Part shown: piece after piece, positions 53,053 through 54,595 of the stretch
Layout of the letters: each line of letters begins with the position of its first letter
Numbering within the stretch: position 1 is the first letter of the stretch
NCBI RefSeq assembly: GCF_000210915.2
Contig: NC_016620.1
Span: forward strand, 868,001 to 932,000
Source: Halobacteriovorax marinus SJ
GTDB taxonomy: Bacteria > Bdellovibrionota > Bacteriovoracia > Bacteriovoracales > Bacteriovoracaceae
Length of the DNA stretch: 64,000 bases
Direction: 5' to 3'
Position numbers and translations under genes: made by a program
Notes under the pieces: model-generated
Databases searched by the model: none
Told to the model about the DNA's origin: nothing
Seen by the model: the letters and a program-made list of their open reading frames with translations, nothing else

Positions 53053-53192
53053 GGGCCATTTATTAGCATAGCTTAGTGATTTAAGCTATTTAGTTAGATT
53101 TTTCTGTATTTATTTCAATATGACCAAGAGGAGAGTTGCTTAATGTTATTTCGGCCGATAACTACTTGAAAGTAAATATTTTGAGGAATGAA

Positions 53193-54110
53193 ATGGCAAA
53201 GAAGGCAAAGAGAAGCTATAGCGAAGATATTACTCTAACAGAGTATCGCGACCACACTAAGGCATTTAACTGGTTTCCAGGACATATGGCAAAGGCCATG
53301 AAGCAGGTTGGAGAGAAGTTGAAGATGGTGGATATCGTTCTCGAACTTCGTGATGCAAGAATCCCGCTGCTATCGGGAAATGAGGATTTAAAGAAAGTTC
53401 TCGGAAATAAGTGTCGTTTAATTGTTCTCAATAAAGTTAATCTCTGTGACCCTGAAAAATTGGCCGACTGGAAGAAGTGGTTTGATGATAATGGCGAGCA
53501 TCACATCTTTATCAACGTCTTAGATCGAAATGCAGTGAAACTCATTACCGAAAAATCCAGAGAAATTGTCGTTGCTAATCGCATAGCTTCAGGTGGAAGT
53601 GGTGAGAAGACAAGAAAGTTTAGAATGATGATGGTAGGGCTTCCAAATACAGGCAAGTCAACTTTAATAAATTCTCTTGGAGGAAGAAAGGCCGCTAAGA
53701 GTGGTGATAAACCGGGGCTAACTCAATCTCAACAGTGGATTAAATTAGCTGGTGATATAGAGTTACTAGATACTCCTGGGATTATGCCAAGAAAGATTGA
53801 AACACGTGAAGAAGGTATGTGGCTTTGTGCAACTCACGCAATTAAAGATCAGATTCTTGGGCAAGAAGAGGTTGCCTGCTTTGTTGTAGAGTATCTAATG
53901 AAGTACTTTCCAAAGAATTTGGAAGAAAAATATAATATTGATAAACTCGCCACTTCTAGTGGTGAAGTTCTTGAGCAAATTTCTCTTAGTCGCGGATTCA
54001 TTAAAAAGAAAGGGGTGGCAGACTTCGATAGAACATTTGCAACAGTTTTATCTGACTTTCGTAAAGGTGAACTGGGATTAATTACCTTCGAAAATATTCC
54101 TATGCTATAA
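53193..54110 (+). CDS. ylqF: Ribosome biogenesis GTPase YlqF/RbgA
   Basis: The circularly permuted GTPase motifs are in the order G4-G1-G3: LNKVNL, then GLPNTGKST (P-loop) and DTPGIM. The N-terminal FNWFPGHMAKAMKQ is the hallmark of YlqF, needed for late assembly of the large ribosomal subunit. The C-terminal 100 residues form the RNA-binding part. GAGGAA before the ATG at 53193 fixes the start; the upstream in-frame ATG at 53136 is less likely. Confidence 0.93.
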   Translation: MAKKAKRSYSEDITLTEYRDHTKAFNWFPGHMAKAMKQVGEKLKMVDIVLELRDARIPLLSGNEDLKKVLGNKCRLIVLNKVNLCDPEKLADWKKWFDDNGEHHIFINVLDRNAVKLITEKSREIVVANRIASGGSGEKTRKFRMMMVGLPNTGKSTLINSLGGRKAAKSGDKPGLTQSQQWIKLAGDIELLDTPGIMPRKIETREEGMWLCATHAIKDQILGQEEVACFVVEYLMKYFPKNLEEKYNIDKLATSSGEVLEQISLSRGFIKKKGVADFDRTFATVLSDFRKGELGLITFENIPML

Positions 54111-54136
54111 TTTCTCTTTATCTTTAGGGAGAAATT

Positions 54137-54595
54137 ATGGACCAAAACTTTTGGCGTAAATGCATTGTTTGTAAAAAAGAAATTAATTTCACTACGAAGT
54201 ACTATAAATGCTCTGTGAGTTCATGTGATAAGAAGCGTGCTCCAGCGCAGTTTTGTTCAGTTGACTGTTGGGGTGTTCACAGTAGTACTCTCAATCATAA
54301 AAGCGCTTGGGCCGAAGAGTTTCATTCTCCGTCAAAAGAGCAGTGGAAAAGCGCTCCTAAGGTGAGAATTGTCTCGTCTTCTAAGAGTAGTACATCAGCT
54401 GATGTTGAAGGATTGCCAAAAGATATTCTAGTCGTTGTCTCTAAGCTCAAGGCCTATGTGAAGGCACGCGGAGATTTAAATACTTCGGCAGATGTGAGTG
54501 ATGTTCTATCAGATATCATTCGAAGAGAATGTGACCGCGCAATTGAAAGGGCCAAGAGCGATGGAAGAAAAACATTAATGGGAAAAGACTTTTAA
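54137..54595 (+). CDS. Zinc-finger protein with C-terminal histone fold
   Basis: This 152-residue protein joins two modules. Residues 9-54 hold eight possible zinc ligands: C9, C12, C25, C30, C40, C44, H48 and H54, in a cross-brace arrangement like ZZ, MYND or HIT fingers. A Ser/Lys-rich linker covers about 62-92. Residues 95-152 look like a histone fold: helix 1 (ILVVVSKLKAYVKARG), helix 2 from NTSADVSDVL to AIERAKSD, then GRKTLMGKDF, the RKT turn and a short helix 3 as in archaeal HMf histones. It probably binds DNA. AGGGAG precedes the ATG. The 3' end overlaps the convergent nuclease gene. Confidence 0.72.
   Translation: MDQNFWRKCIVCKKEINFTTKYYKCSVSSCDKKRAPAQFCSVDCWGVHSSTLNHKSAWAEEFHSPSKEQWKSAPKVRIVSSSKSSTSADVEGLPKDILVVVSKLKAYVKARGDLNTSADVSDVLSDIIRRECDRAIERAKSDGRKTLMGKDF

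Follow-up and report, generated by a model that had tools for sequence, protein, structure and literature searches.

What does a bacterial histone do with a zinc finger at its N-terminus? The question is raised by a 152-aa protein of the predatory marine bacterium Halobacteriovorax marinus SJ, encoded in the window analysed here, a stretch of 64,000 nucleotides whose relevant features are collected in Table 1. The protein is a ZZ histone, a small DNA-packaging protein with a zinc-binding module: it has the N-terminal finger with C4 and C2H2 ligand sets and the C-terminal bacterial-dimer-like fold with the RKT...D motif that characterize this class. Since ZZ histones were described by Schwab et al. 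2024 (PMC11390915), the finger-histone fusion is already known and not new, and the class to which the original prediction gave this name exists. What is new here, as far as genome sequences tell, is that the zinc module also exists alone and that finger and histone are separable.

The gene starts with ATG, preceded by AGGGAG, and is under strong purifying selection (dN about 0.15 versus saturated dS among same-genus orthologues). The AlphaFold2 monomer consists of two confident domains, finger and histone fold, separated by a disordered linker; together with the zinc ligands and the match to the Bdellovibrio histone HBb described below, this bears out the predicted joining of a zinc finger to a histone fold. 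Both neighbours were also correctly named: the YlqF-type GTPase gene lies upstream and, judging from the 26-bp gap, is probably co-transcribed with the histone gene, and a converging 3'-5' exonuclease gene (RNase D-like) lies downstream. The YlqF, exonuclease and pyroglutamyl-peptidase neighbours are common to same-genus loci only, and therefore give no clue to ZZ-histone function. Scanning the surroundings of the gene for promoters and terminators gave no more hits than shuffled sequence did, an NCBIfam search with the 152-aa protein returned nothing meaningful, and no homologue was found in the phage collection searched.

Table 1. Features of the ZZ-histone locus (positions in the window).
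Feature	Position	Strand	Evidence
YlqF/RbgA-type GTPase	53136..54110	+	ends 26 bp upstream of the histone gene
Ribosome-binding site AGGGAG	54126..54131	+	sequence; 5 bases 5' of the ATG
ZZ-histone gene, 152 aa	54137..54595	+	translation, homologues, purifying selection
Two-zinc finger, residues 6-66	54152..54334	+	ligands invariant in 54 homologues; AlphaFold2 pLDDT 88
Disordered linker, residues 76-90	54362..54406	+	pLDDT <50; length varies among homologues
Alpha3-type (bacterial-dimer-like) histone fold, residues 95-152	54419..54592	+	HBb match, profile, Foldseek, contact residues

The C-terminal half had been read as a histone fold with an RKT turn and a short third helix, related to the histones of Bdellovibrio, and this reading was confirmed. 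Residues 95-151 and HBb (Bd0055; 8cmp, E=1.4e-12; 8fvx, E=1.9e-12) can be aligned with no gap, and the proposed profile search with the histone module matched HBb at E=2e-17 and HMfB only at E=0.36. The AlphaFold2 model contains alpha1 (101-112), alpha2 (120-141) and an alpha3 of one turn, the full-length alpha3 of nucleosomal archaeal histones being absent, and its top Foldseek match was the HBb-DNA structure 9f0e (prob 1.00, rmsd 0.9). The FtF histone HLp of Leptospira perolatii has the alpha3 histone fold as well, but its similarity is lower (9qt0, E=1.7e-6) and it forms tetramers (PMC12701072). The clamp and DNA-loop positions of HBb are occupied by D142, R144, K145, T146 and D151, the motif itself reading R144 K145 T146 (x4) D151. 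Eight of the top ten DNA-contact residues of HBb (N22, R57, S9, T53, T8, S24, K10, K12, K52 and K16; PMC11317129) are identical: S9, K10, K12, K16, N22, S24, K52 and T53 are found as S102, K103, K105, K109, N115, S117, K145 and T146, while R57 and T8 are changed to K150 and V101. HBb L38 corresponds to E131. Because these contacts are kept and their columns are conserved across 60 fused sequences, the C-terminal half would be expected to bind DNA non-specifically as a bending dimer. HBb thus shares the fold, the motif, the contact residues and the short alpha3 with this protein, but it has neither finger nor linker and is abundant.

The literature gives B. bacteriovorus two histones, of which Bd0055 (HBb) is finger-less, and from this we infer that Bd3044 is its ZZ histone. 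That Bdellovibrio histones coat the chromosome, as stated in the original prediction, is backed by the literature for Bd0055, but the ZZ histone of B. bacteriovorus is reported to be of low expression and abundance (PMC11390915). A 2023 review names Bd3044 essential (PMC11318664); the available part of the study behind this statement describes deletion attempts for bd0055. A literature search retrieved no biochemical data on, or characterization of, any ZZ histone. Bd3044 and the Haliangium protein D0LYE7 have the same C4 and C2H2 finger with the same ligand order, the same linker and the same C-terminal bacterial-dimer-like alpha3 fold, with no architectural difference from the protein studied here, whose genome also encodes a tailed FtF histone.

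The eight ordered Cys/His ligands predicted in residues 9-54 (C9, C12, C25, C30, C40, C44, H48 and H54; C-x2-C-x12-C-x4-C-x9-C-x3-C-x3-H-x5-H) were found with exactly this spacing. Together with P65 they are invariant in 54 diverse homologues from the phylum and from Myxococcota at a mean column identity of 56%, so that the pattern is not a matter of chance; the ligands are also seen in 23 full-length relatives. A cross-brace is presumed, with C9/C12/C40/C44 as the C4 site and C25/C30/H48/H54 as the C2H2 site, since the scheme published for D0LYE7 (PMC11390915) was carried over. In that publication the C4 site of D0LYE7 is given as C20, C23, C51 and C53; C53 may be a misprint, as the family alignment has C-x3-C there and C51/C55 would be expected.

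Modelled alone, the finger folded with confidence (pLDDT 88). Its nearest fold in Foldseek was the ZZ domain of p62 (E=0.34, prob 0.51, below significance), followed by those of PRT1, BIG, KCMF1 and HERC2, none of them significant. In the proposed profile search with this module, the Pfam scan of the 54 members gave weak zf-MYND and FLZ matches (best zf-MYND E=0.0033, below the curated cut-off), with ZZ absent among the matches listed; against PDB sequences just uninformative CxxC matches to cytochrome c3 appeared (E>0.1). Eukaryotic ZZ domains (p62/SQSTM1, HERC2, p300, ZZZ3) have the same two-zinc C4 and C2H2 layout and are the nearest solved folds, but they show no significant sequence or fold match to the finger, the core of which is basic here. 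The original "ZZ/MYND-type" label was thus fair in its ambiguity, with ZZ folds nearest and a weak MYND signal, but a Pfam ZZ match or a significant fold match did not accompany it; "ZZ-like two-zinc finger" is the limit of assignment, the resemblance to ZZ domains being weak.

The finger was found in 174 of 369 genomes of the phylum, as a single copy in all but one of the genomes listed. It is fused to a histone in 59 of the 129 genomes of the H. marinus family (a count that includes G083, a MAG contig joining the finger to an RlmG-like gene) and in 87 genomes of other families, and unfused in 28 genomes of the phylum, all outside the H. marinus family. The free-finger proteins read have 73-122 aa, exemplified by the 73-aa finger-only L153:1440-1661. 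Most of the tested free-finger genomes also encode a separate alpha3 histone. In the six genomes of genus g125, which have the finger, the best histone hit was at E=0.117 and none was better than E=0.1; these are draft assemblies, 83-98% complete, in which very divergent histones could be missed.

Conversely, finger-less histones occur in genera g3/g16 and g15 of the same family as H. marinus, as starred clades nested among fused rows in the histone tree, with the fused long branch L004 falling within the g3/g16 clade. The tree, built from 60 columns, resolves few forks, and therefore only the starred clades and one case of synteny were used: the finger-less gene of G048 has the same flanking genes as the fused loci of genus g4, a sign that at one locus the finger was either lost or gained. 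Parsimony on the tree gave seven changes of state, one of them (L015) an artefact; this "histone only" case was rejected as a frame break in a MAG. Also set aside was a finger-methyltransferase fusion (L023:2319-3381; L064:2-1063 (-)), in which the finger, the linker and the histone start are joined to an RlmG-like methyltransferase gene; it is probably a deletion or an assembly chimera in one MAG that is 59% complete.

Two further observations were made on these genes. The fused proteins of family f22 (L122:1990-2583 (+), L135:1997-2566 (-)) contain an internal Met (MTEGN...EKEVL) exactly where the free histones of sister genomes start, and internal initiation there could give a finger-less product. 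Apparent doublet alpha3 histones, with two tandem histone-fold matches in one open frame of 137-152 aa, were seen in the H. marinus family (G024:C34:15060-15449 and G021:C1:374833-375222).

Sequences and models together establish the domain architecture, the kinship, the conservation of the DNA-contact residues and zinc ligands, and the separability of the modules. As to function, the best explanation, which we hold to be somewhat favoured, is a dimer that bends DNA and uses the finger to dock a partner other than a histone. The C-terminal halves would pair as an antiparallel histone-fold dimer, which would bind to the DNA backbone irrespective of sequence and, like HBb, bend the DNA. At the N-termini of the dimer, the two fingers, each presumably binding two zinc ions, would be carried on flexible linkers as separate docking modules for a cellular ligand, probably a non-histone one and most likely another protein. 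With its fingers docking a separate ligand, the protein would act as a sparse DNA-bound adaptor and not as a bulk packager. A broader proposal is put forward tentatively: the finger may constitute a single-copy bacterial zinc-finger family of its own with a non-histone ligand, repeatedly joined to and split from a DNA-bending histone, so that ZZ histones would be adaptors.

The finger could instead be a second nucleic-acid module, its basic residues contacting DNA or RNA so that one dimer clamps or bridges two DNA segments. The finger core has a net charge of +5 (median +5 in the 54 sequences, range 1-8), the seven positions 7, 8, 13, 14, 32, 34 and 55 carry a basic residue in 70-100% of these sequences, and the finger occurs as a stand-alone protein. 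The nearest folds are, however, protein-binding ZZ domains, even if below significance, and the profile searches gave no convincing match to any nucleic-acid-binding zinc family. We regard this explanation as unlikely.

The original prediction saw in the finger a targeting module of a type that reads protein tails in eukaryotes. Reading of histone tails would parallel the binding of histone H3 by eukaryotic ZZ domains, the nearest folds to the finger. The finger would bind a basic N-terminal tail, that of an FtF histone or an H1-like SWIB tail, and recruit the ZZ histone to chromatin. Suitable tails are encoded in the genome surveyed (3.44 Mb, two contigs). Its second histone is of the FtF type (L027:1477-1731 (+), G000:C1:1059342-1059593) with a Lys-rich, Lys/Thr/Ala-rich N-terminal tail (MAKKKATKKAATKKKATKTTKASKKK...); a small SWIB gene (C1:1055704) is found about 3.6 kb away. 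Three HU/IHF-family and two SWIB proteins are also encoded, and one of 235 aa (L137:1495-2202 (-), around G000:C1:2076763-2076978) carries a (KKVAKKAT)n H1-like tail of about 150 aa followed by the SWIB domain. In genus g36 a gene for a Lys/Ala-tailed SWIB protein lies directly 3' of the ZZ-histone gene (L032:2032-2482 (+), L024, L046, L051, L055), but this adjacency is limited to that one genus; SWIB genes as such are present in 86 of 134 phylum genomes.

Against tail reading stands the distribution of the histones. Both ZZ and FtF histones were found in 24 of the 129 genomes of the H. marinus family, ZZ only in 35, FtF only in 33 and neither in 37, and the two occur independently (Fisher p=0.48; p=0.77 by genus; kinship ignored). 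In 23 genomes of the family no histone other than the ZZ histone was found, in agreement with a broader profile (A4) in G004, G007, G061 and G128, the second matches of which in G061 and G128 appeared only at E>0.4. The six finger genomes without detectable histones point in the same direction, but for histone binding by the fused form the argument is not strict, because the ligands of fused and free fingers could differ. In addition, the finger core, with its net charge of +5, has just two mostly acidic positions (46 and 61), unlike a pocket for basic tails, and Schwab et al., who doubted histone reading, reported no conservation of the pocket residues in the ZZ-histone finger (PMC11390915). 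The comparative results extend that doubt by a different route. The finger is thus probably not a reader of other histones, and recruitment by a basic tail is judged quite unlikely.

That the histone fold was recruited outside chromatin, TAF-like, as the dimerization module of a regulator in which DNA binding plays a secondary part, is very improbable: the low expression and abundance in B. bacteriovorus (PMC11390915) and the non-chromatin gene neighbours would suit it, but conservation of the residues through which HBb contacts DNA speaks against it.

Research on bacterial histones is young, and the present comparison weakens the idea that the ZZ-histone finger is a histone-tail reader. It points to natural experiments, namely free fingers without histones, a syntenic finger-less relative and genomes with the ZZ histone as sole histone. 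The remaining lead on tail reading is the adjoining SWIB gene of g36, SWIB being otherwise common in the phylum. If the reading of the finger as a family of its own is true, ZZ histones would be DNA-bound adaptors for a non-histone ligand and not readers of histones.
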